Part shown: piece by piece, positions 3,293 through 64,000 of the stretch
Layout of the letters: each line of letters opens with the position of its first letter
Position numbering within the stretch: position 1 is the first letter of the stretch
Source: Haloactinopolyspora alba
Lineage (GTDB): Bacteria; Actinomycetota; Actinomycetes; Jiangellales; Jiangellaceae
Length of the DNA stretch: 64,000 nucleotides
Direction: 5' to 3'
Assembly (NCBI RefSeq): GCF_003014555.1
Contig: NZ_PYGE01000016.1
Location: forward strand, 1 to 64,000
Translations under genes and position numbers: made by a program
The notes under the pieces: generated by a model
Seen by the model: the letters and a program-made list of their open reading frames with translations, nothing else
Told to the model about the DNA's origin: nothing
Databases searched by the model: none

Positions 3293-7018
<3,726 letters not shown>

Positions 7019-9961: not shown

Positions 9962-10096
9962 GTCGTCCTTGTCCTTTCTTCTCTGGAGGGCCTGGATGGA
10001 GCCATGCGGGCGGTCCCGCGAGCTACTCCCTCTGTGGGCGGCAGAACCGCGGCGCAAGGTAGGCGCCGACATCTTCTGCGCGCACTTTCGCGGTCA

Positions 10097-11758: not shown

Positions 11759-11800
11759 GGCCGTACCTCCAGTGATCGAGCGTCTGGGTGCGGTGTTGGG

Positions 11801-48387: not shown

Positions 48388-49410
48388 TCACCTACCGGGG
48401 CTGCCGGGCCGTGTGCCGTCGGCGTCGGCGAAGATCGCCTCGATCACCCGCATGTTGTCGACCGCGTCCGCCGGCGGCGTGGGAACCGGCGTGTCGTCGC
48501 GGATCGCCGCGGAGAACAGCTCGCCCTGGATCTGGTACTGGTCCGCGGGTGGAAACTCGATCACCTCGACGTCCGGCGCCACCGGTCGTGTGCCGCCGGA
48601 GGCGCGGGTGATGTGGGTGGGGAGATCCGGCGGGATGTTGAACGGGATCTCCACGGACAGCCGGCCCTCGGTGCCGAGCACTTGTACGTGCTGGTACGGC
48701 TCGTGCTGCGTGGAGCAGGACAGGACGGCGTGCCGGCCGTCGAAGTCCAGCACCGCCGACGTGAGGCTGTCGGTGCCGAACGACGGATCGCGGTGGACCG
48801 ACGCGCGTACGTCCGTCGGCTCCGCGCCGAACATCATCCGCGCGACGTTGACCGGGTAGCAGCCGATGTCCATCAGGCCGCCGCCGCCGAGCTCGGCGAT
48901 GTTGCGGATGTTGGCCGGGTCGAGGTTGGTGTAGGAGAAGAAGCCGTGGACGGCCCTGAGCTCGCCGATGCCGCCGGCGGCGACGAGGTCGCGGACACGG
49001 ACCCAGCTGGGATGCAGGCGGTACATGAACGCCTCCATCAGCTTGACGCCGGCCTTCTCCGCGCCCGCGACCATCGTCGCGGCCTCGTCCGCGCTCATCG
49101 CGATCGGCTTCTCGCACAGGACGTGCTTGCCCGCCTCGGCCGCGCGCAGGGTCCACTCGGCATGCAGATTGTTCGGCAGCGGGATGTAGACGGCCTCGAT
49201 GTCGGGATCGTCGAGCAGCGCCTGGTACGACCCGTGCGATCGATCGATTCCGAGCGCGGCGGCGGTCTCGGCCGCCCGGCCCGCGTCACGCGACGCCAGG
49301 CCCAGGATCTCGCAGTTGTCGGCCTTCTGCATGCCGGGGATCACCTTGTTCACCGCGATCGCGGCGGACCCCAGGACACCCCAGCGGACCGGATCGGTCA
49401 TCGTCGTCAT
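48388..49410 (-). CDS. Gfo/Idh/MocA-family oxidoreductase
   Basis: A 340-aa NAD(P)-dependent dehydrogenase. The N-terminal Rossmann motif is GVLGSAAIAVNKVIPG (residues 11-26), and the EKPIAMSADEA segment near residue 100 has the conserved EKP lysine. The C-terminal substrate domain contains GGGGLMDIGCYPVNVARMMF near residue 180, with the catalytic Asp and nearby residues typical of the family. Start is ATG 49410, or an internal ATG 4 codons later. It lies downstream of the FadR-type regulator on the same strand and may oxidise a sugar from the nearby galactoside locus. Confidence 0.88.
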   Translation of the reverse strand: MTTMTDPVRWGVLGSAAIAVNKVIPGMQKADNCEILGLASRDAGRAAETAAALGIDRSHGSYQALLDDPDIEAVYIPLPNNLHAEWTLRAAEAGKHVLCEKPIAMSADEAATMVAGAEKAGVKLMEAFMYRLHPSWVRVRDLVAAGGIGELRAVHGFFSYTNLDPANIRNIAELGGGGLMDIGCYPVNVARMMFGAEPTDVRASVHRDPSFGTDSLTSAVLDFDGRHAVLSCSTQHEPYQHVQVLGTEGRLSVEIPFNIPPDLPTHITRASGGTRPVAPDVEVIEFPPADQYQIQGELFSAAIRDDTPVPTPPADAVDNMRVIEAIFADADGTRPGSPGR

Positions 49411-49494
49411 CCCGCCTCCTCGGCTTCACGTCCGTGCACCGGCCTCACCGTAGCCGCCGGGCGGGCGCGGCCGGGCGTGCCCGGTCGCCGGCGC

Positions 49495-50196
49495 TCAGCC
49501 GTCCCAGGACACGTCGCGCTGGGTTTCGCGCAGGTGCTCCTCCATCGCGGCCGCGGCTTCGGCCGGCTGACCGGCCCGGACCGCGCGCAGGATGTGTCCG
49601 TGCGCGGTCACGGCGGCGTCGTGGCCCTCGTTCCGGCGCTCCCGGGTGGCGTAGGTCGAACGCCTCGCCCGCAGCAGGACCGACTCCAGCGACGAGAGGA
49701 TGAGCTGAAGGAACGTCGCGCCCGAAGCCTCGGCGATGAGCGCGTGGAAGCGGACGTCGAGCTCGACGAAACGTTCCCGGTCGCCTGCCGACTCGGCCAT
49801 CTGGTCCAGGATCTCGGACGCGGAATCGATCGACACGACGCCGCGGTTCACACGTTCGGCGGCGAGCCGGGCCAGCTCGCATTCGATCAGCCGCCGGGTC
49901 TCGAGCAGATCGTCGAGATCCAGTGACTGTTGTGCCACCCGGAAATCCAGCATCTCCGCGAAGACCCGCGCGGAAGGAACGCTCACCCGGGAAGGACGGC
50001 CCTGGCTGGAAATCAGGATCTCGCGCGCGACGAGAGTGCGCACCGCCTCTCGTACCACCAGCCGGTTGACGCCGAACTCCTGCGCCAGTTCCGACTCGGG
50101 CGGAATCTCGTCGCCGGGGCGCAGACCGTCCCGTTCGATCCGCGTGATGAGCTCTTTCGCCACCTGGTCGGCAAGGGTCGTCCTCGACAGGTTCAT
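49495..50196 (-). CDS. GntR-family regulator, FadR subfamily with FCD domain
   Basis: A 233-aa regulator. The winged helix-turn-helix spans residues about 10-70 (PPESELAQEFGVNRLVVREAVR), and the all-helical FCD ligand domain about 90-225, with metal-ligand-type residues in VELDVRFHALIAEASG. Start is ATG 50196. It is separated from the ABC transporter operon by a strong hairpin, so it has its own promoter. The palindrome in the promoter of the ABC operon (53675-53691) is a plausible target. Confidence 0.9.
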   Translation of the reverse strand: MNLSRTTLADQVAKELITRIERDGLRPGDEIPPESELAQEFGVNRLVVREAVRTLVAREILISSQGRPSRVSVPSARVFAEMLDFRVAQQSLDLDDLLETRRLIECELARLAAERVNRGVVSIDSASEILDQMAESAGDRERFVELDVRFHALIAEASGATFLQLILSSLESVLLRARRSTYATRERRNEGHDAAVTAHGHILRAVRAGQPAEAAAAMEEHLRETQRDVSWDG

Positions 50197-50340
50197 CGCA
50201 CCGACAACCCCCTCCGTGTCACGTGCTCATTCATCGCCCACCCCGAACCGCCCAGCCGGGCGGAAACCGCGAGCGTGTGCAGCGGCGGAGCCGAGCCGAC
50301 GGTACGCGCGGCACACGCGCGGGCCAGCCAGTGTACAAGC

Positions 50341-50371
50341 CGGTCGCCGGCGCCCGTGTCGCCGGCGACCG
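50341..50371 (-). terminator. strong hairpin terminator of the ABC sugar importer operon
   Basis: A perfect 12-bp inverted repeat, CGGTCGCCGGCG (50341-50352) and CGCCGGCGACCG (50360-50371), with a 7-nt loop. It starts 19 nt past the permease stop codon. The GC-rich stem without a T-tract is the common actinomycete form. It insulates the regulator gene that follows. Confidence 0.8.
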
Positions 50372-50389
50372 CGTCGCCGAACCGGTCCG

Positions 50390-51277
50390 TCACTTCATTC
50401 CGGTGCTGGCGATGCCCTGGACGAAAGAGCGCTGGAAGATGACGAACACGATCAGCATCGGAATGATGGAAAGCAGCGTCATCGCCATCGACCCGGTCCA
50501 GTCGGTGTAGTAGAGGCCCTTGGCGAAGTTCAGTCCGAGCGGGACGGTGAAGGAGGACAACTCCTGCATGGTCACCAGCGGCAGGGCGAAGTCGTTCCAC
50601 CGCCACATGAAGGTGAAGATCGTCAGCACCGCGATGACCGGTTTGCACAACGGCAGGACCACCGACCAGAAGATGCGGAATTCGCTGGCTCCGTCCAGCC
50701 GCGCGCTCTCCATCAGTTCGTTCGGCACCGACACGAGATACTGGCGGACCAGAAAGATGCCGAACGCCTCGGCGCCGCGGGGCAGGATCACGCCCCAGAT
50801 CGAGTTCACCAGCCCCATCTCCGAGACCACCATGAACGTGGGCACCAGGATCACCTGGATCGGCACCATCAGGGTGCTGATCATGAGGATGAAGATGACG
50901 TCGCGGCCCTTGAACGAGAATTTCGCGAACGCGTAGCCGGCCAGGAGGTTGATGAAGACCGTGATGCAGGTGCCGATGACGGCGATGAGGACGGAGTTCT
51001 GGTAGAAGGTGCCCCACGGCAGCTTGTCCCACGCGGCCGAGAAGTTGCTCCACGCGAACTCCGAGGGCACGAGGTCGAACTTGCCGGTGAACAGTTCGGC
51101 GGCCGGCCGCACGGCGGTCGCGAACATCCAGTACAACGGGAAGGCCATGACGAGCGCGCCGCACACCAGTGCGAGCCAGATCACCAGGTCGGCGCCTCGC
51201 GGCAGCCGCTTGGCCCGCTTCGTGCGCTGTTCGCGGCCCGCCGTCTCGGTGGCGGGAGGTTGCACTTCGACTACCAC
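50390..51277 (-). CDS. carbohydrate ABC transporter permease, MalG type
   Basis: A 295-aa membrane protein with six transmembrane helices (about residues 30-285) and the cytoplasmic EAA loop ESARLDGASEFRIFWSVVLPLCKP near residue 200, part of which contacts the ATPase. The first 27 residues are polar. Start is GTG or ATG at 51277, about 10 nt after the MalF-type gene. No ATPase gene is present in the operon, so a shared MsiK-type ATPase encoded elsewhere is expected, as is usual in actinomycetes. Confidence 0.93.
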   Translation of the reverse strand: MVVEVQPPATETAGREQRTKRAKRLPRGADLVIWLALVCGALVMAFPLYWMFATAVRPAAELFTGKFDLVPSEFAWSNFSAAWDKLPWGTFYQNSVLIAVIGTCITVFINLLAGYAFAKFSFKGRDVIFILMISTLMVPIQVILVPTFMVVSEMGLVNSIWGVILPRGAEAFGIFLVRQYLVSVPNELMESARLDGASEFRIFWSVVLPLCKPVIAVLTIFTFMWRWNDFALPLVTMQELSSFTVPLGLNFAKGLYYTDWTGSMAMTLLSIIPMLIVFVIFQRSFVQGIASTGMK

Positions 51278-51286
51278 GCAGTCCTC

Positions 51287-52279
51287 CTAGGCCGCATTGT
51301 TCGATTGCCGGGACAGGCGCCAGTACGTGAGCGTGAACGCCATCAGGAGCAGGTACAGCACGACGCCGACCGCGCTGGCCGAACCCATCTCGCCGGTCTG
51401 GAACGCCTCGCGGTAGATGTACTGCACGAGGACGGTGGTGGAGAACCCCGGCCCGCCGTTGGTCATGACCAGGATCAGGTCGAAGACGTGCAACGAGAAG
51501 ATGACGTTCAGGATGACCAGCAGGAACGACGTCGGCGCGAGCAGCGGCCAGGTGACGTACCGGAAGCGCTGCCATCCTGTCGCTCCGTCGACCTTGGCCG
51601 CCTGGATCAGCTCCGTCGGAATGCTCTGCAGCGCGGCGAGGTAGATCACCATGTTGAATCCGAGACGGATCCAGATGGTGACGATGATCAGTGACGGCAT
51701 GGCCCAGCTGGACGACGAGAGCCACGGAACCGTCGGGATCTCGACCGTCCTGAGCAGGTTGTTCAACACCCCGTAGCTGTCGTTGAAGATCCACAGCGAG
51801 ATCAGGCCGACGGCGACCAGCGAGATGCAGACCGGCACGAAGTAGACCGCGCGGAGGAACGTCCGCCCGGGCATCTGCCGGTTCAGGCCGATGGCCACCA
51901 CCAGGCCCAGCGCCATCGTTGTGGGAACGGTGCCGGCGACGTAGTAACCGGTGTTCGCGAACGCCTGCCAGAACACCCCGTCGGTGAAGAGCCCGACGAA
52001 GTTGGACAGGCCGACGAACGTCGACTCGCCCATGAGGGTCCAGTCGTTGAGGCTCATGTAGAACGAGCCGACGATCGGGACGAACATGAACAGCGTGAAC
52101 AGGATCAGGTTCGGGGTGATGAACAGGTAGGGGACGAGTTTCTGTTTCAGCCGTCGGCGCCGGGCGGGGTTCGACGCCGGCGCGGACGGTGTGGCGGTGG
52201 TCGTGGTGTGTGGTGTCATGACCATCCCGGTGTCGTCGTTCCCTCGGACGGGCTGAACGTGGCCGCCGTCACGGCTCAC
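51287..52279 (-). CDS. carbohydrate ABC transporter permease, MalF type
   Basis: A 330-aa permease with six transmembrane helices between residues about 50 and 320. The EAA loop reads IQAAKVDGATGWQRFRYVTW near residue 235. The start is GTG 52279, sharing GTGA with the end of the binding-protein gene and using its upstream CCGGAGG as ribosome site; a shorter start at the internal ATG of MTPHTTT is possible. The N-terminal 45 residues are Thr/Ala-rich and polar. It pairs with the MalG-type permease just downstream. Confidence 0.92.
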   Translation of the reverse strand: MSRDGGHVQPVRGNDDTGMVMTPHTTTTATPSAPASNPARRRRLKQKLVPYLFITPNLILFTLFMFVPIVGSFYMSLNDWTLMGESTFVGLSNFVGLFTDGVFWQAFANTGYYVAGTVPTTMALGLVVAIGLNRQMPGRTFLRAVYFVPVCISLVAVGLISLWIFNDSYGVLNNLLRTVEIPTVPWLSSSSWAMPSLIIVTIWIRLGFNMVIYLAALQSIPTELIQAAKVDGATGWQRFRYVTWPLLAPTSFLLVILNVIFSLHVFDLILVMTNGGPGFSTTVLVQYIYREAFQTGEMGSASAVGVVLYLLLMAFTLTYWRLSRQSNNAA

Positions 52280-53610
52280 CCTCCGGGTTCGGATCCGAGA
52301 CTGTCCTGGATCCGCTGGTCGAGGTGGGCGACGGTGTCGTCGGGCGACTGGCCGCTCTTGAACGCGGCCTCCAGCTCGTCCCCCAGGGCCTGGTTGATCT
52401 CGCCGAACGCGGGGGAGGTGGTCTCACTGACCGCGGTCTCGGACACCGTGGGCAGGTGTTCGAGTGCGAGATCCTTGATGTCGGGTCTGAACTCGTACCC
52501 GAGTTCTTTGGCGGACCGGCCGGCCAGGCTTCGTCTCGTGGGCAGCAACTGAGAGGTCAGCACGATCCGTAGCTGGTTCTCCTCGTTGTTCAAGAACTTC
52601 AGGAAGTCCGCGGCCAGCTCCGGCTCCGCGCAGTTGTTGGTCACCGCCAGTCCGTTCCCGCCCAGCATGTTGCCCGTGTCGACGTCTCGGATCAGGTAGG
52701 TCGCGTCCCACCCCTCGGGCATGTTCGCCTGCAGGAACGACGTCTGGAAGTCGCCGTTGATCATCATCGCGATGTCGCCGTTGGCGAACAGGGTCTGGAT
52801 CTGTGTCCCGCTCTTGATCGACGTGTCGGGTGGGGCCAGGCCGTCGGTGAACCACGAGCGGGTGAACTCCACGGTCTCGCGCGCCGCGTCGGTGTTCACC
52901 TCGGACCGCGTCAGGTCAGCGTTCAGCAGCCGGCCGCCGTGCTGGTACAGGTACCCGGTCCACCGGTACGCGTTGTCGGCCGGCTGCCATGACATCGCCA
53001 CCGAATAGGGCACGATGCCGGACTCCTTGATCCGGTGCGCCACACTCAGGAACTCGTCCCACCTCCACGCATCCTCGAGGCTGTTCGGAGTGGTGATGCC
53101 GAGCCGGTCGAAGATCTCGGTGTTGTAGAAGAGCACGTGCGCGCCGGTGTCGACCGGGAAGCCGTACGGCCGTTCGTTCTCGGTGACCGCCGACCACACG
53201 TTCGGGACGAACTCGTCGGCGTAGCCGGGCGGGAGGTGGTCCGAGAGGTCGGCGAGCGCGCCCTCCTGGATGTAGCGCCCCATCCGCTGGTACTGGATGC
53301 GCACGATGTCCGGGCCGGTTCCGGCCATCAGCCGGGTGTTCAGTTTCTGGTAGTGCTGCGGGAACGGGATGCGTTCCAGTTGGACGTTCGCGTCCGGGTT
53401 CTGCTGTTCGTACGCGTCGATCGCGTCCTGGAACACCTGGGCGGCGGCGGGCGTGCCGAACGTCTGGAACGTCAGTCGCCCGGAGCCGGAACTGGACGCG
53501 CCGCCCCCGCATCGGCCGAGGAGCGCTGCACCGGCCGCGCCCGCGCCTGCGCGCAGGACCTGCCGCCGGTTCAGCAGCCCGGGTCGCCGGTCTCGGTCGC
53601 TCATGTTCAT
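52276..53610 (-). CDS. carbohydrate ABC transporter substrate-binding protein
   Basis: A 444-aa extracellular binding protein of the family-1 (maltose/oligosaccharide) type. The N-terminus has a twin-arginine-like NRRQVLRAGAGAAGAALLG, then a cysteine at residue 34 in LLGRCGGG; Arg just before the Cys is atypical for a lipobox, so lipidation is uncertain. Family features include RIPFPQHYQKLNTRLMAGTGPDIVR (shown in part) near residue 80 and GDIAMMINGDFQTSF near residue 275. Start is ATG 53610 with GGAGG about 9 nt upstream. First gene of the importer operon, divergent from the sulfatase operon; the ligand is probably a galactose-containing oligosaccharide. Confidence 0.92.
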   Translation of the reverse strand: MNMSDRDRRPGLLNRRQVLRAGAGAAGAALLGRCGGGASSSGSGRLTFQTFGTPAAAQVFQDAIDAYEQQNPDANVQLERIPFPQHYQKLNTRLMAGTGPDIVRIQYQRMGRYIQEGALADLSDHLPPGYADEFVPNVWSAVTENERPYGFPVDTGAHVLFYNTEIFDRLGITTPNSLEDAWRWDEFLSVAHRIKESGIVPYSVAMSWQPADNAYRWTGYLYQHGGRLLNADLTRSEVNTDAARETVEFTRSWFTDGLAPPDTSIKSGTQIQTLFANGDIAMMINGDFQTSFLQANMPEGWDATYLIRDVDTGNMLGGNGLAVTNNCAEPELAADFLKFLNNEENQLRIVLTSQLLPTRRSLAGRSAKELGYEFRPDIKDLALEHLPTVSETAVSETTSPAFGEINQALGDELEAAFKSGQSPDDTVAHLDQRIQDSLGSEPGG

Positions 53611-53667
53611 CTACTCGCCTCCGAGCGCCTGGCAGTGCGCAGCGTCGCGTCTCCGGTCTGAGGTTGG

Positions 53668-53696
53668 ACAGTAAAGCTTAGCTGCTAAGCTGTCAA
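53668..53696 (-). promoter_or_regulatory. ABC-operon promoter with a built-in operator
   Basis: On the minus strand TTGACA (53696-53691) and TACTGT (53673-53668) are separated by exactly 17 bp. That spacer is almost filled by a perfect 17-bp palindrome, AGCTTAGCTGCTAAGCT (53675-53691; 7-bp arms). A bound regulator would block RNA polymerase directly. The site lies between the binding-protein and sulfatase genes, so it may control both. The FadR-type protein at 49495 is the likely binder. Confidence 0.65.
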
Positions 53697-53740
53697 CGAC
53701 CTGGAGGCGCCGTGAGATGCCGTGATCTTTGGAGTATGCG

Positions 53741-55309
53741 ATGGACGACGTGAACCGGCCGCCCAACATCGTGTTGGTCGTCTCGGATCAGCAACGGGCC
53801 GACCTCGTCGGGGCGTTCGGCGAGATTCCGGTGCGCACGCCGACGCTGGACCGGCTCTGCAGCGAGGGAACGGCCTTCCGCCGCGCCTACACCGCCACGC
53901 CGGTCTGCACCCCGACCCGGGCGACGCTGCTCAGCGGCCAGTACCCGAGCCGCCACGGGGCGTGGAACATCGGCACCGACGTGCCGGAGGACACCTTGTC
54001 GTTGCCTGCCATGCTCACCGAGCAGGCCGGATACCGGACCGCGATCTTCGGCAAGAGCCACTTCAAGAGCGTGCTGCGGCCAGGCAGCCCGGAAGCGCTG
54101 CCCTGCTCACGCGACTGGGACGCGTACGAGAACTGGAGCGGCCCCTGGTACGGATTCCAGCACGCCAGGCTCTCGAACGGGCACGTGGACGAGCCGCACG
54201 CGTACTCCATGCACTACGGGGCATGGCTGCGTGAGAAGGGCATCCCGCCGGCGCCTCCGTACTTCCTGCCGGACCCGGCCAGCACCGTCACCCCGAACAA
54301 GGATCCCGGTGAACGCGTCGGGCGCTGGGAGCTGCCGGAGGAGTACCACAGCAGCCGCTGGATCGCCGACGAGGCGATCTCGTTCCTGCGTGACCACGTG
54401 GCCGACAACGGCTCGCAGCCGTTCTACATGGTCGTGAACTTCCAGGACCCGCACATGCCGTTTCGTGCGCCCGACCCCTGGCATGCCATGCACGACGACG
54501 TCGACCTGCCGGAACCGGTGCGGCGCCAGGACGAGTGGCAGGACAAACCCAGCTTCTACCGGGCCACCATCGAGGGCCGCCAGGACGACCTCGGCCTGCA
54601 GGAGAACCCGCAGGTGGGGATCCCCTGCCAGCAGGCGCAGTACGTCGGCCACGAGGGGCGTACCGCCGAGGAGGAGCAGATGTGGCGCACCTACCTGGGC
54701 ATGCAGAGCCTGCTCGATCACCATCTCGGCCGCATCTGCGACACCCTCGACGAGCTCGAGCTCACCGGCGACACGCTGATCGTCTACACGTCCGATCACG
54801 GGGACTACATGGGTGACCACTGGCTGTGGTCGAAGGGGCCGAGCCACTACGACGGCGCCGTCCGGGTGCCGATGATCGTGCGCTGGCCCGGGCGCGTACC
54901 GGCCGGCGTGCACAGCGACGCGCTGCAGAGCCTCGTCGACGTTCCGGTGACGTTCTCCAGCGTCGCCGGGGTCGGACCGGACCCGCGGATGCAGGGTGTC
55001 GACCAGTCGAGCTGCTGGGCCGAGCCGTCCGAGCCGGCCCGCGACGGCGTGTTGATCGAGCACCGTGCCGAGCAGGGCCTGTACGTCAACAGCTGGGTGA
55101 CCGGCCGGTTCCGGCTGAGCGTGCACTCGTACACCACCGAGGGACGGGACGAGGTCGAGCTGTACGACTTCGCCGACGACCCGGACGAGTTCGTGAACCT
55201 GGCCGCCGACGGCGGCTCCCCCGAACTCGCGGAGAAGCTGACGCTGGAGATGGTCCGGTACCGCATGGGCCGTGACCGTGGGTGGCAGCCACGGCAGGCG
55301 TTCTCGTGA
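53741..55309 (+). CDS. sulfatase (type I, formylglycine-dependent)
   Basis: A 522-aa alkaline-phosphatase-superfamily sulfatase. Metal ligands near residue 15 (VVSDQQRADL), the formylglycine motif at Cys56 (VCTPTRATLLSGQYPSRHG) and the late DHGDYMGDH near residue 350 are intact. Cys rather than Ser in the motif means aerobic maturation by formylglycine-generating enzyme, which is not encoded here. There is no signal peptide, so it acts in the cytoplasm on imported sulfated sugars. Start is ATG 53741 with GGAG 7 nt upstream. It heads a plus-strand operon with an alpha-galactosidase and acid-sugar enzymes; a galactose sulfate ester is the likely substrate. Confidence 0.92.
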   Translation: MDDVNRPPNIVLVVSDQQRADLVGAFGEIPVRTPTLDRLCSEGTAFRRAYTATPVCTPTRATLLSGQYPSRHGAWNIGTDVPEDTLSLPAMLTEQAGYRTAIFGKSHFKSVLRPGSPEALPCSRDWDAYENWSGPWYGFQHARLSNGHVDEPHAYSMHYGAWLREKGIPPAPPYFLPDPASTVTPNKDPGERVGRWELPEEYHSSRWIADEAISFLRDHVADNGSQPFYMVVNFQDPHMPFRAPDPWHAMHDDVDLPEPVRRQDEWQDKPSFYRATIEGRQDDLGLQENPQVGIPCQQAQYVGHEGRTAEEEQMWRTYLGMQSLLDHHLGRICDTLDELELTGDTLIVYTSDHGDYMGDHWLWSKGPSHYDGAVRVPMIVRWPGRVPAGVHSDALQSLVDVPVTFSSVAGVGPDPRMQGVDQSSCWAEPSEPARDGVLIEHRAEQGLYVNSWVTGRFRLSVHSYTTEGRDEVELYDFADDPDEFVNLAADGGSPELAEKLTLEMVRYRMGRDRGWQPRQAFS

Positions 55310-55337
55310 GCACGTGCCGAGCCGGAGGAGAGCAACC

Positions 55338-56780
55338 GTGACAGGATTCGAGCCCATCGACGACGCGGCGCCGCTGCCGGTCGACCCCGTCCAGGGGCGG
55401 GTCTACGAGTTCGGGTGGCAGTCGTGGTCACCGAGCACCGTGTACCCGGTCACGGCCGGGCACGGATACCGGCCGACCGACGACGTGTTCCTGACGCCCT
55501 ACTACCGCCGTGAGAAGCCGCCCTCGACGACGAGCTTCCAGGGTGAAGGGCTGCTGGCCGTCGAGCCGGCACCTGGCGAGCCGGTCCACGTCGTCGCCCT
55601 GGACGACGGCCGCGTCGAGGTCCCGACCATCCGGGCCGCGTATCGCGACGGTGCCGTGCGCATCGTCGTCGACGGCGCGGTCGAGCACACCGTCGACGAC
55701 GGGCCGGGCGGACTGTACGGGGCGCTGGCGCGCTTCGCCGACCGCTACACCGCGTCGGTCGGCCGGCCGACGATCCGTTCGGCGCCGCCGGTGTGGGCGA
55801 GCTGGTACCAGTACTTCACCGAATTCACCGAGGACGACCTGGTCCGCAACCTCGACCTGATGGACCGCCTGGAGCTGCCGGTCGGTGTCGTCCGTCTCGA
55901 CGACGCCTTCCAGGCCGGCATCGGCGACTGGCTGGAGCCGTCGGAGGGGTTCACCTCGGTGGAGGGCATGATCGGCCGGGTCCTCGACCGCGGGCGCCGC
56001 GCCGGCATCTGGACCGCGCCGCTGCTGGTCGGGGCGCACAGCCGGACGTTCGCCGAGCACCCGGACTGGCTGGTCCGCGACTCCGCGGGTCAGCCGATCC
56101 TGGCGATGCACAACTGGGACCAGGACTGCTACGTGCTCGACCCGACGCACCCGGGAGCGGCGGAGTACCTGCGCGAGGTGTTCACCACCTACGCCGGATA
56201 CGGCGCGACGTACTTCATGGTCGACTTCATGTACGCGGGCGCCGTCGAGGGCGTGCGCCACGACGACGTCGCCGCGCTCACCGCCTACCGCGGTGCGCTC
56301 GAGCTGATCCGCGAGTCCATCGGCCCGGACGCACTGCTGCAAGGGTGCGGTGCGCCGATGTTCCCGTCGATCGGGCTGGTCGACACGATGCGGGTGGGCA
56401 CCGACGTGGCGCCGCACTGGGACGCGGCCGGGGAGTTCTCCCGCCCGGCGACCCAGGCGGCCGTCGTCTCGACGGTCGGGCGCGGATTCACCCAGGGACG
56501 GTTCTGGGTGAACGACCCGGACTGCCTGGTGGCGCGCCCGCAGATCGAGCGGCGCGAGGTCTGGGCCGACGTCGTCGAGCGCTACGGCGCGGTCCGCATC
56601 AGCAGCGACGGACTGGACCAGCTCGACGACTGGGGCCTCGAGACCACCCGGCGGCTCCTCGAACCCGCCCGGACCGAGCCGTTCGAGCCGGCGCGCGTGC
56701 CGATCGATCCGAGTCTGCACGGATCCGGGCCCACGACCGCCGCCGCGACGCAGGAGGCAACGGATGACGCCGACGGATGA
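55338..56780 (+). CDS. GH36-type alpha-galactosidase-like glycoside hydrolase
   Basis: A 480-aa retaining glycosidase. GWQSW near residue 31 is typical of clan GH-D members. The (beta/alpha)8 barrel has the nucleophile Asp at about 296 (YFMVDFMYAG) and the acid/base Asp at about 356 (MRVGTDVAPHW), with QGCGAPMFPSIG between. It lacks a signal peptide and has a shortened N-terminal beta domain compared with typical GH36 enzymes of about 700 aa. Start is GTG 55338 with GGAGGAG 7 nt upstream; it overlaps the dehydratase gene by 17 nt. It should release galactose (or a galactose-like sugar) from imported oligosaccharides after desulfation. Confidence 0.88.
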   Translation: MTGFEPIDDAAPLPVDPVQGRVYEFGWQSWSPSTVYPVTAGHGYRPTDDVFLTPYYRREKPPSTTSFQGEGLLAVEPAPGEPVHVVALDDGRVEVPTIRAAYRDGAVRIVVDGAVEHTVDDGPGGLYGALARFADRYTASVGRPTIRSAPPVWASWYQYFTEFTEDDLVRNLDLMDRLELPVGVVRLDDAFQAGIGDWLEPSEGFTSVEGMIGRVLDRGRRAGIWTAPLLVGAHSRTFAEHPDWLVRDSAGQPILAMHNWDQDCYVLDPTHPGAAEYLREVFTTYAGYGATYFMVDFMYAGAVEGVRHDDVAALTAYRGALELIRESIGPDALLQGCGAPMFPSIGLVDTMRVGTDVAPHWDAAGEFSRPATQAAVVSTVGRGFTQGRFWVNDPDCLVARPQIERREVWADVVERYGAVRISSDGLDQLDDWGLETTRRLLEPARTEPFEPARVPIDPSLHGSGPTTAAATQEATDDADG

Positions 56781-58506
56781 TGGCGCGACCGGGGCGGCGC
56801 TGCGCAGCAGCGCGTGGTTCGCCGACCGGGGCAAGAACGGCTTCATCGCCCGGTCGCACCTGCGCGCGGCCGGGCTGACCGACGAGGCGTTCGACGGCCG
56901 CCCGGCGGTCGCGATCGTCAACAGCTGGTCCGACCTGACACCGTGCCATTCGCACATGCGCGGCCTGGCCGAGGCGGTGCGCCGCGGGGTGCTCGCCGCC
57001 GGCGGTGTCCCGTTCGAGGTGCCCACGATGTCGCTGGGTGAGCCGTTCATGCGGCCGACGACGATGCTGTACCGGAACCTGATGAGCATGGACGTCGAGG
57101 AGACGCTGCGAGCCAACCCCGTCGACGCGGCGGTCCTGCTCGGCGGGTGCGACAAGACCACGCCGGCGCAGCTCATGGGCGCCTGCAGCGTGGACGTGCC
57201 CACCCTCGTCGTCACCGGCGGGCCGATGGTCTCCGGCTCGTTCCGGGGCCGCACCATCGGCAGCGGGACCGACCTGTGGCGGTTCAGCGAGGACGTCCGC
57301 GCGGGCCGGATGAGCGAGGCGGAGTTCGCCGAGGCGGAGAGCTGCATCCACCGCAGCGCAGGGCACTGCATGACCATGGGCACGGCGTCGACCATGGCGT
57401 GCCTGACCGAGGCGCTGGGCATGCAACTGTCCGGCGGCGCCGCCGTCGGCGCGGTCGACTCCGGCCGGGCGCGGGTCGCCGAGCGGTCCGGCCGGCGCGC
57501 GGTCGAGATGGCAGCCGCCGGGCCGTCGCCGTCGACCATCCTGACCAGGCAGGCGTTCGAGAACGCGATCCGGGTCAACGCCGCCGTCGGAGGGTCCACG
57601 AACGCGGTGCTGCACCTGCTGGCGGTGGCCGGACGGGTGGGCGTCCGGCTCGACCTGGACGACGTGGACCGGCTGGCCCGGGACACCCCGCTGCTCGTCG
57701 ACCTGAAACCGAGCGGGCGGTTCCTGATGTCGGAGTTCGCCGACGCCGGCGGCCTGCCCGCGGTACTGCGCGAGCTGTGGCCGATGCTGCACACGGATGC
57801 GCTGACGGTGGACGGGACGACCGTGGGCGAGAACGTGCGCCATGCCGGCCGGTACCTGCCCGAGGTGATCCGCGGCCGCGACGACCCCGTGCTGCCCCCG
57901 GACAGCGGGACCGCCGTGCTGCGTGGCAGCCTCTGCCCCCGCGGGGCCGTGATCAAACAGTCGGCCGCCAGCCCGGCGCTGATGCGGCACCGCGGACGTG
58001 CCGTCGTCTTCGACGACGTCGAGACGTACCAGAAAGCAGCCGAGGACCCCGCTCTCGACGTCACGGCCGACTCGGTGCTGGTGGTGCGCAACGCCGGCCC
58101 GCGCGGTTACCCCGGCATGCCCGAGATCGGGAACCTGCCGATCCCCGTCCGCCTGCTCGAGGAGGGAGTCACCGACATGGTGCGCATCTCCGACGCCCGG
58201 ATGAGCGGGACGTCCTACGGCACGGTCGTCCTGCACGTCGCCCCCGAGTCGGCCGTCGGCGGGCCGCTGGCGCTCGTGCGCGACGGCGACCCGGTGGTGC
58301 TCGACGTGCCGGCCAGGAGGCTCGACCTGGACGTCGACGACGCCGAGCTCGAACACCGACGACGGGAATGGTCGCCGCCGACGCCCCGGCACGACCGGGG
58401 GTACAGCCGGATGCACGTGGAGCACGTCCTCCAGGCCGACCAGGGGGCCGACCTGGACTTCCTGGTCGGAGCCAGCGGCCACGACGTCCCGAGGACGCCG
58501 TTCTGA
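56764..58506 (+). CDS. IlvD/Edd-family sugar-acid dehydratase (second copy)
   Basis: A 580-aa dehydratase paralogous to the gene at 24255. Iron-sulfur motifs are GGCDKTTPAQLMG near residue 125 and GHCMTMGTASTMACLTEALG near residue 200; KQSAASPALMRHRGRAVVF and RMSGTSYGTVVLHV mark the C-terminal domain. Start is ATG 56764 with GGAGG 9 nt upstream; its stop shares one base with the next start. In a galactose-oxidising route it would convert galactonate to 2-keto-3-deoxygalactonate. The exact sugar acid is inferred from neighbours. Confidence 0.9.
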   Translation: MTPTDDGATGAALRSSAWFADRGKNGFIARSHLRAAGLTDEAFDGRPAVAIVNSWSDLTPCHSHMRGLAEAVRRGVLAAGGVPFEVPTMSLGEPFMRPTTMLYRNLMSMDVEETLRANPVDAAVLLGGCDKTTPAQLMGACSVDVPTLVVTGGPMVSGSFRGRTIGSGTDLWRFSEDVRAGRMSEAEFAEAESCIHRSAGHCMTMGTASTMACLTEALGMQLSGGAAVGAVDSGRARVAERSGRRAVEMAAAGPSPSTILTRQAFENAIRVNAAVGGSTNAVLHLLAVAGRVGVRLDLDDVDRLARDTPLLVDLKPSGRFLMSEFADAGGLPAVLRELWPMLHTDALTVDGTTVGENVRHAGRYLPEVIRGRDDPVLPPDSGTAVLRGSLCPRGAVIKQSAASPALMRHRGRAVVFDDVETYQKAAEDPALDVTADSVLVVRNAGPRGYPGMPEIGNLPIPVRLLEEGVTDMVRISDARMSGTSYGTVVLHVAPESAVGGPLALVRDGDPVVLDVPARRLDLDVDDAELEHRRREWSPPTPRHDRGYSRMHVEHVLQADQGADLDFLVGASGHDVPRTPF

Positions 58507-59471
58507 TGGGGGCGCACGCGGACACTCGGTCCGATGGCCGCGCCGGCGTCCGTGCTCCCGCGCCGGCCGGTGTCTGCCCGGTGCTGCTGACCCCGTTCCG
58601 GCCGGACGGCGAGGTCGACGAGGACGGGTTCGTCCGCGTCGTCGACCACCTGCTGGCCGTGGGCGCGCGGTCGGTGATGTTCCCCGGCTTCGCCTCGGAG
58701 GTGCTCGCGCTCTCCGACGACGAGCGCGAGCACCTGTCGATGGTGCTGCTGGAGCGCACCGCCCGGCGCGAGGACGTCACCGCCGTCGTCTCGGTGCCCG
58801 ACTACGCCACACACCACGCCGTCCGGCGAGCGGCGCGGCTCGTGGAGGCGGGAGCCGACGCCATCAACGTGTTGCCACCGCACCAGCTGGCGCCACCCGT
58901 CGAGTCGGTGCTCGCACATCTGGAGCAGCTGCTCACGGCGGTGCACCCGGTGCCGGTCGTGCTGCAGCACGCGCCGCTGCAGACCGGGACGGCGCTGACC
59001 GTGCCGACCATCCGGGCGCTGGCCGAACGCCACCGTAACCTCGCCGCCGTCAAGGTGGAGTCGCAGCCGCCCGGCCGGACGATCTCGGCGTTGCTCGACT
59101 CGGAGACGCCGATCCCGTCGATCATCGGGCACGCCGGCCAGCAGCTGCCGGACGCGCTGGACCGCGGCGCGATCGGCGTGCAGCCGGGCTGCTCGTTCAC
59201 CGAGCTGTACCTGCGGGTGTGGCACCAGTGGGAGGCCGGCGAACCAGCAGCGGCACGTCGCCTGCACACCCGGATGCTTCCGTACCTGTCCTCGTGGATG
59301 CAGGATGTCAACGTGATCGTCGGGGCGGAGAAGATCGTCGCGATGCGGCGCGGGCTCATCGGCAGCGACCACTGCCGTGCGCCCGTGCGCGAGTTGGACG
59401 ATGGTGAGCGGGCGTCGGTGGATGCGTTTCTGGACGAGTTCGGCGCCGAGTTGCCGGAGGTGGGGCCGTGA
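58506..59471 (+). CDS. dihydrodipicolinate-synthase-family aldolase
   Basis: A 321-aa class I aldolase of the DapA/N-acetylneuraminate-lyase family. The barrel starts at VCPVLLTPFRPDGEVDEDGF near residue 24, and the Schiff-base lysine lies in LAAVKVESQPPG near residue 185. After a dehydratase of the Edd type, such proteins usually cleave 2-keto-3-deoxy sugar acids to pyruvate and an aldehyde. True DapA is unlikely because no lysine-pathway gene is near. ATG 58506 overlaps the dehydratase stop by one base, and the 3' end overlaps the SDR gene by 4 nt. Confidence 0.87.
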   Translation: MGAHADTRSDGRAGVRAPAPAGVCPVLLTPFRPDGEVDEDGFVRVVDHLLAVGARSVMFPGFASEVLALSDDEREHLSMVLLERTARREDVTAVVSVPDYATHHAVRRAARLVEAGADAINVLPPHQLAPPVESVLAHLEQLLTAVHPVPVVLQHAPLQTGTALTVPTIRALAERHRNLAAVKVESQPPGRTISALLDSETPIPSIIGHAGQQLPDALDRGAIGVQPGCSFTELYLRVWHQWEAGEPAAARRLHTRMLPYLSSWMQDVNVIVGAEKIVAMRRGLIGSDHCRAPVRELDDGERASVDAFLDEFGAELPEVGP

Positions 59472-60250
59472 GCGCCGGCGGGACGCCGGGCCGGCTGGCC
59501 GGCGAGGTCATGGTCGTCACCGGCGGCGCACGCGGCATCGGACGGGCGATCGCCGAGGTCGCGCTGCGTGAGGGGGCACGAGTGATCGCCGCCGACGTCG
59601 ACGGGGAGTCCGGCGCCCAGCTGATGGCCGACATGGGTGACGACGCCCGCCTGTGGTTCCGCCAGGTGGACATCACCGACGCGGACGCGGTGGCGGCCCT
59701 GGTCAGTGAGATCGAGACCGCGTACGGGGCGGTGACGGTGCTGGTGAACAACGCCGGGCGGAACGTCTACGCGGACCCGGTGGCGATGACCGAACGCGAG
59801 TGGGACGACGTGTTCGCCGTCGACCTCAAGGCGCCGTGGATCTGCACCAAGCACGTGCTGCCCGGCATGATCACGTCCGGGCGGGGGAGCATCGTGAACA
59901 TCGCGTCGCTGCACGCGACGCTGACCATCGGCGGCATGTTCCCGTACGCCGCGGCCAAGTCGGGGCTGCTGGGCTTCACTCGCAGCCTCGCGCTCGAGGT
60001 CGGCCGGCACGGCGTCCGCGTCAACGCGGTCAGCCCGGGGTACGTCCGCACCGCGCTGGTCGACGAGTACTTCGCGCAGCATCCGGAGCCGGACGCCGAA
60101 GCGCTCGAGACCGACAAACAGCCGCTCGGGCGCTTCGGCGAGCCGGCCGAGATCGCCGAGGTCGTGTGCTTCCTCGCCTCGCCGGCCGCGTCGTACGTCA
60201 CCGGCGCCGACTGGGCCGTGGACGGGGGACTGGGCTCACGGTTCGCCTGA
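59468..60250 (+). CDS. short-chain dehydrogenase/reductase (SDR)
   Basis: A 260-aa classical SDR. The cofactor motif is TGGARGIG (about residues 18-25), NNAG lies near residue 97, and the active site YAAAK near residue 160 with an upstream Ser (IASLHA region). An Asp at the end of beta-2 (AADVDG) favours NAD over NADP. Start is GTG 59468 in a GTGA overlap. In this operon a galactose dehydrogenase role (sugar to lactone) fits best. It overlaps the convergent DUF6194 gene by 15 bp. Confidence 0.9.
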   Translation: MSAGGTPGRLAGEVMVVTGGARGIGRAIAEVALREGARVIAADVDGESGAQLMADMGDDARLWFRQVDITDADAVAALVSEIETAYGAVTVLVNNAGRNVYADPVAMTEREWDDVFAVDLKAPWICTKHVLPGMITSGRGSIVNIASLHATLTIGGMFPYAAAKSGLLGFTRSLALEVGRHGVRVNAVSPGYVRTALVDEYFAQHPEPDAEALETDKQPLGRFGEPAEIAEVVCFLASPAASYVTGADWAVDGGLGSRFA

Positions 60251-60810: not shown

Positions 60811-61548
60811 TTGCCAACCCTCGACTCGTGGCACCTGCGTACCGCGGACGTGGCGGAGCGGTCCGGCTACTCGGTGCAGCAGGTGCGCAACCTCGAACGC
60901 GACGGCGTGCTGCCGCGCGCGACGCGCACCGCTTCGGGGTATCGCGTCTACACCGAGGTCCATCTACGTTCCGCGCTGGCCTACCGCGCCCTCGCGGCCG
61001 GGACCGGCCCGGTCGAGGCGAAGCGGATCGTCCGTGCTGCGCACGAGCGTCCTGCGGCGGAACTGCTGGCCATGCTCGACGCAGTGCACGCCCGGCTGGA
61101 CCGGGAACGCGCGGAGCTGAAGGCGGCTGAGGAGGCGGTCGAAGTGATCTCCGCCGAACCGATCGGCGACGTGCGCCCGGGCGATGCGATGAGCGTGTCC
61201 GAACTCGCCGGGGCGCTCGGTGTGCGCCCGTCGACGCTGCGGCACTGGGACGCAGAGCGGCTCGTGGTGCCGGACCGCCTCACCGGCCGCGGAACGCGGC
61301 GGTACTCGCCGGCCCAGGTGCGTGACGCCCGGATCGTCCACCAGCTACGCAGCGCCGGATACCGCGTCGATACGCTGCGCGCCCTGATGGCCGATCTTCC
61401 GCGCGGGCGCCGCTCGGAGGAGCTCGCCGCCGCGCTGGCCGCCCGGGACGCCAGCATCGCGGCGCGCTCCCGCGCCCTCCTTGAGGCCGCCGGCGCTCTC
61501 GCCGTGATCATCAACGATCCTCGGTACCATGACCTGGAGTATCGTTGA
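60811..61548 (+). CDS. transcriptional regulator with two MerR-type DNA-binding domains
   Basis: A 245-aa protein. Residues about 8-75 are one MerR winged-helix domain (RTADVAERSGYSVQQVRNLE ... GYRVYTEVHLRSAL). After a helical linker, residues about 127-190 form a second (MSVSELAGALGVRPSTLRHW ... GTRRYSPAQVRDARIV). The C-terminal tail is helical, and no metal-binding cysteines are present. Typical MerR proteins have one such domain and dimerise, so a single chain here could act as a pseudo-dimer. Start is TTG 60811 after GGAGAACGG. It is divergent from the DUF6194 gene with 62 bp between, so it may regulate that gene. Confidence 0.85.
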   Translation: MPTLDSWHLRTADVAERSGYSVQQVRNLERDGVLPRATRTASGYRVYTEVHLRSALAYRALAAGTGPVEAKRIVRAAHERPAAELLAMLDAVHARLDRERAELKAAEEAVEVISAEPIGDVRPGDAMSVSELAGALGVRPSTLRHWDAERLVVPDRLTGRGTRRYSPAQVRDARIVHQLRSAGYRVDTLRALMADLPRGRRSEELAAALAARDASIAARSRALLEAAGALAVIINDPRYHDLEYR

Positions 61549-61661
61549 CGATCACCAGAGGGGACGAGCCGACGGCTTTCCGAACACCTGCCGCCACACG
61601 CAGCCGTGGTGGCTATGCTGTCGCTTCAGCGTCTCGGGAGCTGCGGAGGAACGGAACAGCA

Positions 61662-62693
61662 ATGAAGATCGTCTTACATATCGGCATGCCCAAGGCCGGC
61701 TCCACGGCCCTTCAAGAAGGGCTGAGGAGCCTCCGCGACCCGCTGGCGGAAGCCGGAGTGCTCTATCCGAAGAGCCCCGTGATCCGTAACAAGCAAGCAC
61801 TGCTGGTCTCCGGCCTGACGTCGCACGGGCGGTTGCCCCGCCATTTGCGCCACAAGTACAACGATGACAGCGAGAAGATCGAGCAGGACGCGCAGACCTG
61901 GCTCCAACAGTTGCGCGAGCGGATCACGAACTCCAGTCTCGACACGGTGGTCCTCTCGGACGAGTCACTGTTCCGCATCAACAGCGAGAGCGCGCTCACG
62001 ACGTTGGCCGAACGGCTACGGCCGCTGGCCGACACGATCGATGTCGTCGTCTATGTCCGTCAGCCGTCCGACTACTACCTGTCGATGGCGCAACAGACGC
62101 TGAAGGCGTCACACGAGATTCGGTCGGTAGAGCCGATCAATTACCGGGCCACGCTGGAAGGCTACGCCAAGCACGTTGCCGACACGCTTCACGTGCTGCC
62201 GTACGACCGCCGGAACTGGCCGAACGGTGACATTCTGCGGCACTTCTTCGAGAAGTTCCTGCCGAACGTAGACGTGTCACTCGACGACGTGCCGAAGCAA
62301 CCGAACACCTCACTGAGCGCCGAGGCCATGTCGGTGGTGGCCGAGTACCGCAGGTTGTTCTGGTCGGACGCCAACCAGCGGTTCACGCCGGACACGGGGC
62401 GCCTCATCCGGGCCCTGAACGCTGCCGACGCGGAGGTGGACGGCTCGCGGCGCCCGCGTCTGCACGAGTCGGTCCGTCAGGCGGTCGACAACGCGTCCAC
62501 CGAACTGCTGTGGCTACGCGACATGCACGGCGTCGTGTTCGACGAGCTGGGCGACTACGAAGGTGTGGGCGAGTCGGTCGAACTCCCGCCGCGCCCCGAG
62601 CGGGTCGAAGACATCTGCCAGGTCGACACCGAGCGCAAAACGGCCCTCGTCTATCGCGCCCTGCGCGAACTGGCCGAACCACCCGCGAAGTGA
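61662..62693 (+). CDS. sulfotransferase-family protein
   Basis: A 343-aa P-loop protein. The PAPS-binding loop IGMPKAGSTALQEGL lies at residues 6-20, and a second region (VVYVRQPSDYYLSMAQQTLK, near residue 130) carries the Arg-x-Pro and downstream Ser expected to contact the 3'-phosphate. It resembles distant bacterial carbohydrate sulfotransferases. No signal or membrane segment, so it acts in the cytoplasm on a sugar or lipid precursor. Start is ATG 61662, with GGAGGAACGG 11 nt upstream. The following genes, convergent to it, are methyltransferases. The acceptor is unknown. Confidence 0.82.
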   Translation: MKIVLHIGMPKAGSTALQEGLRSLRDPLAEAGVLYPKSPVIRNKQALLVSGLTSHGRLPRHLRHKYNDDSEKIEQDAQTWLQQLRERITNSSLDTVVLSDESLFRINSESALTTLAERLRPLADTIDVVVYVRQPSDYYLSMAQQTLKASHEIRSVEPINYRATLEGYAKHVADTLHVLPYDRRNWPNGDILRHFFEKFLPNVDVSLDDVPKQPNTSLSAEAMSVVAEYRRLFWSDANQRFTPDTGRLIRALNAADAEVDGSRRPRLHESVRQAVDNASTELLWLRDMHGVVFDELGDYEGVGESVELPPRPERVEDICQVDTERKTALVYRALRELAEPPAK

Positions 62694-62701
62694 GTGGCGC
62701 C

Positions 62702-62749
62702 GCCGGGGTTTCGCCCGTCGCCACGACGCGCAACGGGCGAAGCCCCGGC
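62702..62749. terminator. bidirectional hairpin terminator
   Basis: A 17-bp inverted repeat (62702-62718 with 62733-62749; 14-nt loop) with a single G-T mismatch, rich in GCCGGGG and CGCCCGT, fills the 61-bp gap between the convergent sulfotransferase (ends 62693) and FkbM (ends 62755) genes. Confidence 0.85.
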
Positions 62750-62754
62750 GCCGT

Positions 62755-63585
62755 CTACGGGGTCGAGGCGACCTCGGCAGGCACACAGGTTGCCACGGCG
62801 GAGTACCACTCGCGGAAACGGTCGTCGAGCTCGGCGGGGATCGTTCCGGGCCAGAACAGCCAGTCGCGCTCCGGCTCGTCGCCCGCCTGCGCTTCCGGCG
62901 GCTCGATGTGCCGGGCCTCGTATCCGTGCGCGGCGAGGAGATGCTGTACCTCGTCACTCTCGCTCCGGCCCGGTAGCAGCTCGGCGACGATAACCGGACG
63001 GTGCGTGTCGAGCAGTTCGGCCGCACCTCGGATGACCGCCGGCTCGTGCCGCTCCACGTCGATCTTGACGACCGAAGGAACCAACCCGGACGAACGGACG
63101 TAACTGTCCAGCGTGATGGCCGGTACCGTGACGGTGCCCTTCGGCTCACGATGCCGGCTGACGAGGGAGTTGGACGCGTCGGTACGTGCGGACAGGTACA
63201 GCGTCGCCTCACCTGCCGTGTCGCTGACGGCGGCACGCTCCCAACGGACCTTGAGATCGTTGGCGGCCTGGAACGACTCACCGGCGTCGGCGACGTCCGG
63301 CGTCGGCTCGAACGCCACGGTCGTCCCGTCCGGCCGGAGCCGACCGTGCAGCGCCGCGTAGATGCCGATGTTGGCACCGACGTCGAAGAAGACGGGAGAC
63401 GGTGCGAGGTCCCACGTGGCCAGCAGCGCCGCTGTCGTGGCAGCCTGCCAGCCGCTCAGGCCGTCCTCGCGGAGCAACCGTCCGATGAAGAGGCTCTTGC
63501 CATACGGCACGCTCAACTCGCCGAGCTGAGCGTCCATGCCCGCGGCCAGTGGGATCGAGATCGTTGTCCATTTCAGGTTCTTCAC
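62755..63585 (-). CDS. FkbM-family SAM-dependent methyltransferase
   Basis: A methyltransferase of about 276 aa. The SAM motif I is FFDVGANIGIYAALHGRL near residue 68, then AFEPTPDVADAG near residue 95, and the FkbM signature VVKIDVERHEPAVIRGAAEL near residue 175. Such enzymes O-methylate sugars or hydroxyl groups of secondary metabolites or cell-surface glycans. GTG 63585 gives a normal length; in-frame codons further upstream would overlap the next gene, and no strong ribosome site decides between them. It follows the methyltransferase fragment on the same strand. Confidence 0.85.
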   Translation of the reverse strand: MKNLKWTTISIPLAAGMDAQLGELSVPYGKSLFIGRLLREDGLSGWQAATTAALLATWDLAPSPVFFDVGANIGIYAALHGRLRPDGTTVAFEPTPDVADAGESFQAANDLKVRWERAAVSDTAGEATLYLSARTDASNSLVSRHREPKGTVTVPAITLDSYVRSSGLVPSVVKIDVERHEPAVIRGAAELLDTHRPVIVAELLPGRSESDEVQHLLAAHGYEARHIEPPEAQAGDEPERDWLFWPGTIPAELDDRFREWYSAVATCVPAEVASTP

Positions 63586-63631
63586 AGTTCGGAACTCTAC
63601 CTTCTCGGCATAGCCGTTGTACTCGCCCAGC

Positions 63632-64000
63632 TCAGCTCGCGCTCCGGTGGCCGCGGATCCGCCCCTTGCGCACCGGCGGCCAGGGAACACCGTGATCAGC
63701 GGCCGGATCGACACGGCCCAGCGGTCCCACGAGGCCCTCTTTCATGCCGACCACCGCGAACTGCTTGCCGGTCTGGCGGACATAATCGGCGAAGTGGCTG
63801 TTGTCGCGGATGTCGTCGAAGACGACCGTGGCATCACGTGACAGCGCTGGCTCGACGGCGGCCATGGTGCGCTCGCGGCCCTCATACTCCTTGTCCGAGT
63901 CGTAGTGGAAAAAGTCCACCTCGCCACCGACGAGACGGAGAGCCTCCGGTAGGTGCTCCTGATCGGAACCGAGGAGCAGGGTCCACCGGTCGCGAAGGTG
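63632..64000 (-). CDS. class I SAM-dependent methyltransferase, 5' end outside the window
   Basis: The last 122 codons of a gene that continues past base 64000. The visible part reads WTLLLGSDQEHLPEALRLVG, then VDFFHYDSDKEYEGRERTMA and ATVVFDDIRDNSHFADYV. The D-x-HYDSDKEYEG and VFDDI pattern matches the C-terminal half of the Methyltransf_24-type family, in which these acids lie near the active site or metal. It ends 47 bp upstream of the FkbM start and so is probably in the same operon. Confidence 0.75.
   Translation of the reverse strand, partial: HLRDRWTLLLGSDQEHLPEALRLVGGEVDFFHYDSDKEYEGRERTMAAVEPALSRDATVVFDDIRDNSHFADYVRQTGKQFAVVGMKEGLVGPLGRVDPAADHGVPWPPVRKGRIRGHRSAS

Follow-up and report, generated by a model that had tools for sequence, protein, structure and literature searches.

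What does a locus break down in which a sugar importer, a sulfatase, a glycosidase and enzymes of sugar-acid catabolism stand side by side? The question is raised by positions 48388-60250 of the first 64,000 nucleotides of contig NZ_PYGE01000016.1 of Haloactinopolyspora alba (RefSeq assembly GCF_003014555.1), a stretch that we call the window. An earlier note on this DNA had proposed that a sulfated galactoside is imported, desulfated in the cytoplasm, cut by an alpha-galactosidase and converted to pyruvate and glyceraldehyde without a sugar kinase. Altogether, our analysis supports an importer, an intracellular sulfatase and a GH36 protein feeding an oxidative sugar-acid route, but not the proposed last step, a plain alpha-galactosidase or a fixed role for the sulfatase. 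We give an even chance to a model whereby this locus, induced by its substrate, serves the catabolism of a galacto-configured glycoside, which would be sulfated in H. alba and Phytoactinopolyspora endophytica.

A conserved core in a divergent locus

The minus arm of the locus encodes a sugar-binding protein (SBP), MalF- and MalG-type permeases, a GntR/FCD regulator and a Gfo/Idh oxidoreductase, and the divergent plus arm an S1 sulfatase, a GH36 protein, an IlvD/EDD dehydratase, a DapA-like protein of the DHDPS/NAL family and an SDR oxidoreductase (Table 1). Open reading frames (ORFs) and profile matches confirmed every gene, position and family of the earlier note, whose list lacked the GntR/FCD regulator. 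The plus-strand genes probably form one operon because they overlap (by 17 nt for GH36/IlvD, 1 nt for IlvD/DapA-like and 4 nt for DapA-like/SDR) or nearly touch. Judged by sequence, the likelier start of the sulfatase is ATG 53741 and that of GH36 GTG 55338.

The GH36-IlvD-DapA-like-SDR core is also found in Phytoactinopolyspora halophila, P. endophytica and Humibacillus. With the core order kept in these three other genomes and the divergent locus, minus Gfo/Idh, kept in P. endophytica at identities of 62-76% (Table 1) and in unchanged arrangement, the arrangement goes beyond chance. The P. endophytica locus carries a second S1 sulfatase at its GntR end; Gfo/Idh was not found in this version. 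In P. halophila, a member of the same family (Jiangellaceae) and the source of the closest GH36 among named records (78%), the core adjoins a GH42 beta-galactosidase and a different ABC importer, with no sulfatase within 10 kb. The Humibacillus cluster comprises two GH36 genes, an importer, IlvD, the DapA-like gene, a PfkB kinase, a KDPG-type aldolase and SDR, and no sulfatase.

The 130-bp gap between the two arms contains a perfect 17-bp palindrome with 8-bp arms; palindromes with arms of at least 8 and a loop of 0 or 1 number just seven across the 64 kb. The same gap in P. endophytica holds a related sequence (three mismatches) that forms a palindrome of its own. We suggest that the GntR regulator might act on this palindrome to control the locus, which would be induced by its substrate.

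A GH36 clade in which a sugar-contacting lysine is methionine

The AlphaFold model of the H. alba GH36 protein (mean pLDDT 83.5) has TtGalA and TmGalA as its nearest folds (Z 38.0-36.2, rmsd 2.5-3.1 over 399-430 residues), the next entry standing at Z 25.2. With this compact TmGalA-type fold and the catalytic Asp pair (equivalents of the Asp327 nucleophile and the Asp387 acid/base) the protein belongs to GH36; an assignment to GH31 or as a sulfoquinovosidase was rejected, GH31 entries ranking far lower. The TmGalA literature describes Asp221 as binding the C6 hydroxyl, Asp220, Trp257 and Lys325 that at C4, and Lys325, Arg383 and Tyr191 that at C3, with Asp327 and Asp387 as catalysts (PMC5132143, PMC6089974). 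The H. alba protein retains the equivalents of Asp220, Asp221, Trp65, Trp190, Tyr191, Trp257 and Arg383 in addition to the fold and both catalysts, but Lys325, the O3/O4 contact two residues ahead of the nucleophile, is replaced by Met316.

Among 58 aligned GH36 rows, in which some genes appear twice, Met occupies this position in six rows from four genes and Lys in the other 52. In a tree of 31 rows the four Met genes form one clade (support 100/99), and the remaining 27 have Lys. This clade is also the one that stands beside the sugar-acid genes: IlvD, DapA-like and SDR genes adjoin all four Met-type genes, and are absent from 33 of the 34 Lys-type rows whose loci span 6 kb or more, the exception being the Humibacillus tandem partner of a Met gene (in 31 of the 37 rows of this count, each flank measured 5 kb or more). 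Because the trait is shared by descent, the change counts as a single evolutionary event, linked to one pathway, and not as four independent ones. No fifth Met gene was found among the residue-read matches from 99 relatives, 396 genomes of the phylum, 186 genomes of the Humibacillus family and the contigs of named genomes, the residue being unread in plasmid matches and in weak matches from the 99 relatives. Thus, of the compact GH36 alpha-galactosidase in the earlier note, the compact GH36 stands, and a galacto configuration is plausible because the Asp for the C6 hydroxyl is kept and the IlvD protein resembles L-arabinonate/D-galactonate dehydratases, but the residues are not those of a plain alpha-galactosidase. 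In Humibacillus, a gene of the class-V aminotransferase family (L041, 8686-9906) lies between the Lys-type and Met-type GH36 genes.

A DapA-like protein without the aldolase tyrosine

The first three PDB sequence matches of the DapA-like protein are 3dz1, named dihydrodipicolinate synthase, and 7c0c and 3fkk, the L-2-keto-3-deoxyarabonate (L-KDA) dehydratase of Azospirillum brasilense. The last two were also the top Foldseek match of its model (mean pLDDT 90.4; E 1.3e-19) and came first in VIA-align (Z 38.7), tied with DHDPS at 38.0. In L-KDA dehydratase, Gln143 stands for the aldolase Tyr, Lys171 forms the Schiff base and Glu173 and Glu200 are bases, Glu200 for the C5 proton; Glu173 is described as not conserved in other DHDPS/NAL enzymes (PMC9795676). 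We read these positions in 37 rows that represent 20 distinct genes of the H. alba protein's family and in two further genes. All 37 rows and both further genes have the Schiff-base Lys and have Gln for the aldolase Tyr, and the equivalents of Gln143, Lys171 and Glu173 are present in all 22 genes. The protein is closest in fold to an enzyme with which it shares three catalytic residues, but to which it is only ~25% identical and whose Glu200 it replaces with Ala or Gly. Read from these residues, an ordinary aldolase is the less likely function, and abstraction of the C3 proton followed by elimination at C4 the more likely one, but the residues do not argue for L-KDA dehydratase proper.

At E <= 1e-40 this Tyr-less family was detected in 16 of the 99 genomes searched, all of them in the window's family and H. 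alba among them (16 of the 22 genomes searched in that family), and in five of 396 genomes of the phylum, again with H. alba among them. Its loci have varied contexts, many with ABC importers. In one of them (L137), the DapA-like gene has an IlvD gene (64%) and a GH88-family gene as partners, and ~7 kb away lies a gene whose product scores above the NCBIfam cut-off for D-galactonate dehydratase (550 vs 311 bits). The GH88-family gene (5868-6977) is two genes ahead of IlvD and has Agrobacterium beta-galactosidase BglB as its nearest NCBIfam model (77 vs 420 bits). In two further loci from the window's family (L134 and L135, genomes G020 and G016), the Tyr-less DHDPS homologue is accompanied by an SDR and, as read by eye, an ABC importer of the oligopeptide type, and sulfatase genes are found within 10 kb.

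The IlvD protein, which stands ahead of the DapA-like protein in the operon, falls short of the L-arabinonate dehydratase model NF009559 (808.5 bits vs a cut-off of 882) and passes the wider subfamily PRK06131 (865.3 vs 539). A relative from R. leguminosarum takes D-fuconate, L-arabinonate and D-galactonate (PMC9795676). The relatives of the SDR protein, of which sulfoquinovose 1-dehydrogenase is one of many similar ones, were rejected as pointers to the sugar because they are too generic, and a sulfo-Entner-Doudoroff route for sulfoquinovose was rejected for a locus with an S1 sulfatase and a GH36 protein.

A probably intracellular sulfatase

The cytoplasmic location given for the sulfatase in the earlier note is supported, as judged from the start of its Pfam domain: the Sulfatase domain begins at ORF residue 12, or residue 8 when counted from ATG 53741, so that a signal peptide would not fit ahead of it. 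All five aligned sequences share, without variation, the CTPTR motif and the Asp, Lys and His expected at the active site, which we take to serve in metal and sulfate binding; these features place the protein among S1 sulfatases. A formylglycine-generating enzyme (FGE) is encoded on another contig of the genome (PF03781, 281 bits). Among PDB entries, one named choline-sulfatase matches best (168.8 bits, in two separate stretches). Matches to PF00884 number 25 in H. alba, 47 in P. endophytica, five in P. halophila and six in Humibacillus, some of those outside H. alba being fragments of one gene. Close homologues (E <= 1e-75) are found in three of 23 genomes, the own genome included, and among the 396 phylum genomes in the own genome only. 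Desulfation inside the cell had been presented as a departure from the usual sulfatases; the location is supported, but there is precedent in the bacterial choline-sulfatase BetC, which is intracellular. The choline-sulfatase gene betC is treated in PMC4602150.

A second type of locus, in P. endophytica (L148) and in genome G010, which shares its genus code (L147), has a sulfatase directly behind a sugar ABC importer. These sulfatases look cytoplasmic and are 37-38% identical to that of H. alba; the regulator is, by eye, of LacI type.

Proposed pathway and alternative readings

From these findings we infer the following activities and order of steps. The SBP-MalFG importer, together with a shared ATPase from elsewhere in the genome, would import a small sulfated oligosaccharide or glycoside; no ATP-binding ABC subunit was seen among the ORFs and family matches within 48.4-60.3 kb. 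The cytoplasmic sulfatase, matured by the genomic FGE, would take off the sulfate, and the compact retaining GH36 enzyme would free an alpha-linked sugar, for which D-galactose or a galactose modified at C4 is the likeliest candidate. The SDR would oxidize C1, the lactone being opened spontaneously or by another enzyme, and the IlvD/EDD enzyme would dehydrate C2-C3 to give a 2-keto-3-deoxy-aldonate. The Tyr-less DHDPS homologue could then form a Schiff base with its Glu taking the C3 proton, elimination at C4 being likelier than C3-C4 cleavage. Alternatively, a KDG-type kinase and a KDPG-type aldolase from elsewhere in the genome could handle unmodified 2-keto-3-deoxygalactonate. The absence of a sugar kinase claimed earlier is true of the H. 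alba cluster, but the Humibacillus version includes a KDPG-type aldolase and a PfkB kinase that comes closest to KDG/KDGal kinases (both above the Pfam and below the NCBIfam cut-offs), and both have homologues elsewhere in H. alba. Contig C6 carries the one KDPG-family aldolase match of the H. alba genome (41% identity to that of Humibacillus over 160 residues), which adjoins a stretch homologous to the Humibacillus kinase (37% over 314 residues), making a phosphorylative ending possible in the same cell.

Several findings weigh against this model. The sugar may not be plain D-galactose because of the change of Lys325 to Met, and the ligand cannot be read from the relatives of the SBP (Lmo0181 is the best in the PDB), which were rejected as too generic a pointer. 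The sulfatase is without a close characterized relative among its PDB matches and, being present in only two of the four clusters, is an add-on to a conserved core that leads from GH36 to the sugar acid. No lactonase gene was seen among the ORFs and family matches within 48.4-60.3 kb. The Humibacillus kinase, at 168 bits, is far under the nearest NCBIfam cut-off of 400. Finally, the Glu200 equivalent is Ala or Gly in all 37 DapA-like rows and both further genes, and with three of the four catalytic residues of L-KDA dehydratase kept, neither that activity nor an aldolase is demonstrated.

The main rival, which we consider rather unlikely, is a pentose: a beta-L-arabinopyranoside, possibly sulfated and the five-carbon counterpart of an alpha-D-galactoside, would be degraded to alpha-ketoglutarate semialdehyde by GH36 as beta-L-arabinopyranosidase, SDR as L-arabinose dehydrogenase, IlvD as L-arabinonate dehydratase and the DapA-like protein as L-KDA dehydratase. 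The nearness of IlvD to the L-arabinonate dehydratase model and the fold and three residues that the DapA-like protein has in common with L-KDA dehydratase fit this reading, as does the existence of GH36 beta-L-arabinopyranosidases (PMC10688797) and, according to abstracts, of sulfated arabinans in Codium; the two GH36 genes and two possible endings of the Humibacillus cluster (DapA-like; kinase and aldolase) likewise look as though divided between a pentose and a hexose. However, the Asp that contacts the C6 hydroxyl of galactose is kept. GH27 beta-L-arabinopyranosidases swap the Asp that leaves room for C6, a difference not fully decisive for specificity (PMC5853685), and by this GH27 criterion, which is not absolute, H. 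alba GH36 with both Asp residues does not qualify; the GH27 beta-L-arabinopyranosidase 4nxk stands far below the GH36 entries in the fold list (Z 21.4). The changed Lys325 touches O3/O4 and not C6, Glu200 is missing from all 22 DapA-like genes, and a single crude regular expression found no aldehyde dehydrogenase near 20 DapA-like loci, of which one spans only 3.2 kb and another has an incompletely called gene. The change of Lys325 counts against plain D-galactose and plain L-arabinopyranose alike. Altogether, the Asp for the C6 hydroxyl, the Humibacillus kinase and KDPG-type aldolase, which fit a hexose, and the galactonate dehydratase near L137 tilt the balance towards D-galactose or a modified form of it and away from L-arabinose, without proving it.

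The route of the earlier note, in which D-galactose passes through D-galactonate to 2-keto-3-deoxygalactonate and a DapA-type aldolase yields pyruvate and glyceraldehyde, is unlikely in our view. The DHDPS/NAL fold and the Schiff-base Lys agree with it, and aldolases of this family act on 2-keto-3-deoxygalactonate (PMC9795676), but in such aldolases Tyr works as the base (PMC9795676), and here it is Gln in 22 of 22 genes; the GxxGE-type motif reads GxASE in 20. Because the protein lacks this Tyr and has instead the Gln of L-KDA dehydratase and its Glu, two residues after the Schiff-base Lys, the claim that the route runs all the way to pyruvate and glyceraldehyde lacks support. A degradation of a sulfated glycan of the organism itself or its kin, and not of algae or plants, seems very improbable: genes that would suit it lie just downstream, namely a sulfotransferase-like ORF (61545-62693, by eye) and genes for FkbM methyltransferases, a GT2 glycosyltransferase and a PF03567 sulfotransferase, but the 61545 ORF is without a Pfam match and none of the kind were seen in the 6.4 kb after the P. 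endophytica SDR.

We speculate, at long odds, that the Met-type GH36 enzymes have a new specificity for O4-modified galactosides and that the DHDPS homologue is an eliminase by which the 2-keto-3-deoxy acid loses its substituent or hydroxyl at C4. O4 is proposed as the modified position because its Lys contact is lost while O3 must be free for the dehydratase. If true, the two enzymes would make up a new oxidative pathway for galactose modified at C4, to which some species would have added the sulfatase.

Features of the locus and its surroundings

Table 1 Features at 48388-60250 and identity of their P. endophytica counterparts
Feature	Position	Strand	Identity (%)	Remarks
Gfo/Idh/MocA oxidoreductase	48388..49410	-		profile match; closest NCBIfam model D-xylose 1-dehydrogenase Gfo6, at 154 bits well short of the cut-off of 350
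GntR/FCD regulator	49495..50196	-	62	profile match
ABC permease, MalG type	50390..51277	-	76	profile match
ABC permease, MalF type	51287..52279	-	71	profile match
Sugar-binding protein (SBP)	52276..53610	-	63	twin-Arg and lipobox-like N-terminus by eye
17-bp palindrome AGCTTAGCTGCTAAGCT	53675..53691			divergent promoter; candidate GntR operator
S1 sulfatase	53741..55309	+	69	CTPTR formylglycine motif; ORF opens at 53729
Compact GH36 (TmGalA/TtGalA type)	55338..56780	+	74	Lys325 equivalent is Met; ORF opens at 55272
IlvD/EDD sugar-acid dehydratase	56764..58506	+	76	L-arabinonate/D-galactonate-type subgroup
DHDPS/NAL-family (DapA-like) protein	58506..59471	+	62	Gln for aldolase Tyr, Lys-x-Glu; L-KDA-dehydratase-like
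SDR oxidoreductase	59468..60250	+	73	probable aldose 1-dehydrogenase

Downstream of the locus, the run from 61545 to 63714 and its continuation on contig C16 (L145, 1546-10884) have the look of genes for a sulfated, methylated surface glycan. Elsewhere in the window, three look-alike adjacent ORFs occupy 8246-13405, the middle one matching the cellulose-binding Sde182 nucleoside-hydrolase-like family (PF07632); the neighbouring 13.5-23.5 kb was read by eye as encoding a sugar kinase, an ABC importer, a transketolase in split genes and a TIM-barrel protein resembling isomerases (PF01261).

Comparison with known systems

Aimed searches of the open-licence literature, judged by listed entries and abstracts, found no paper on this gene combination. 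Its parts are known families, and the logic of importing, trimming, oxidizing and dehydrating is known as well; the combination is a variant. It offers a clear test case for actinobacteria that would import sulfated sugars first and desulfate them inside. Moreover, the automatic names alpha-galactosidase and dihydrodipicolinate synthase/aldolase are probably wrong in detail for two enzyme groups, the GH36 clade that lacks a sugar-contacting Lys and is tied to one pathway, and the DHDPS-family clade that lacks the aldolase Tyr.

With the De Ley-Doudoroff and other non-phosphorylative pathways for galactose and L-arabinose, in their IlvD/EDD version, the H. alba locus shares a candidate aldose dehydrogenase, an IlvD/EDD enzyme, a DHDPS-family enzyme and an ABC importer. 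In contrast to these pathways, the H. alba route would be fed by an intracellular sulfatase and a GH36 enzyme, its last enzyme lacks the aldolase residues and has the L-KDA dehydratase set only in part, and no lactonase or aldehyde dehydrogenase was seen in the cluster. In marine carrageenan loci with GH110 enzymes and sulfatases, desulfation is likewise thought to come before the alpha-galactosidase (PMC7939477). The GH110 protein described there has a predicted signal peptide, however, while H. alba combines a GH36 enzyme with an ABC importer and a sulfatase that probably acts inside the cell.

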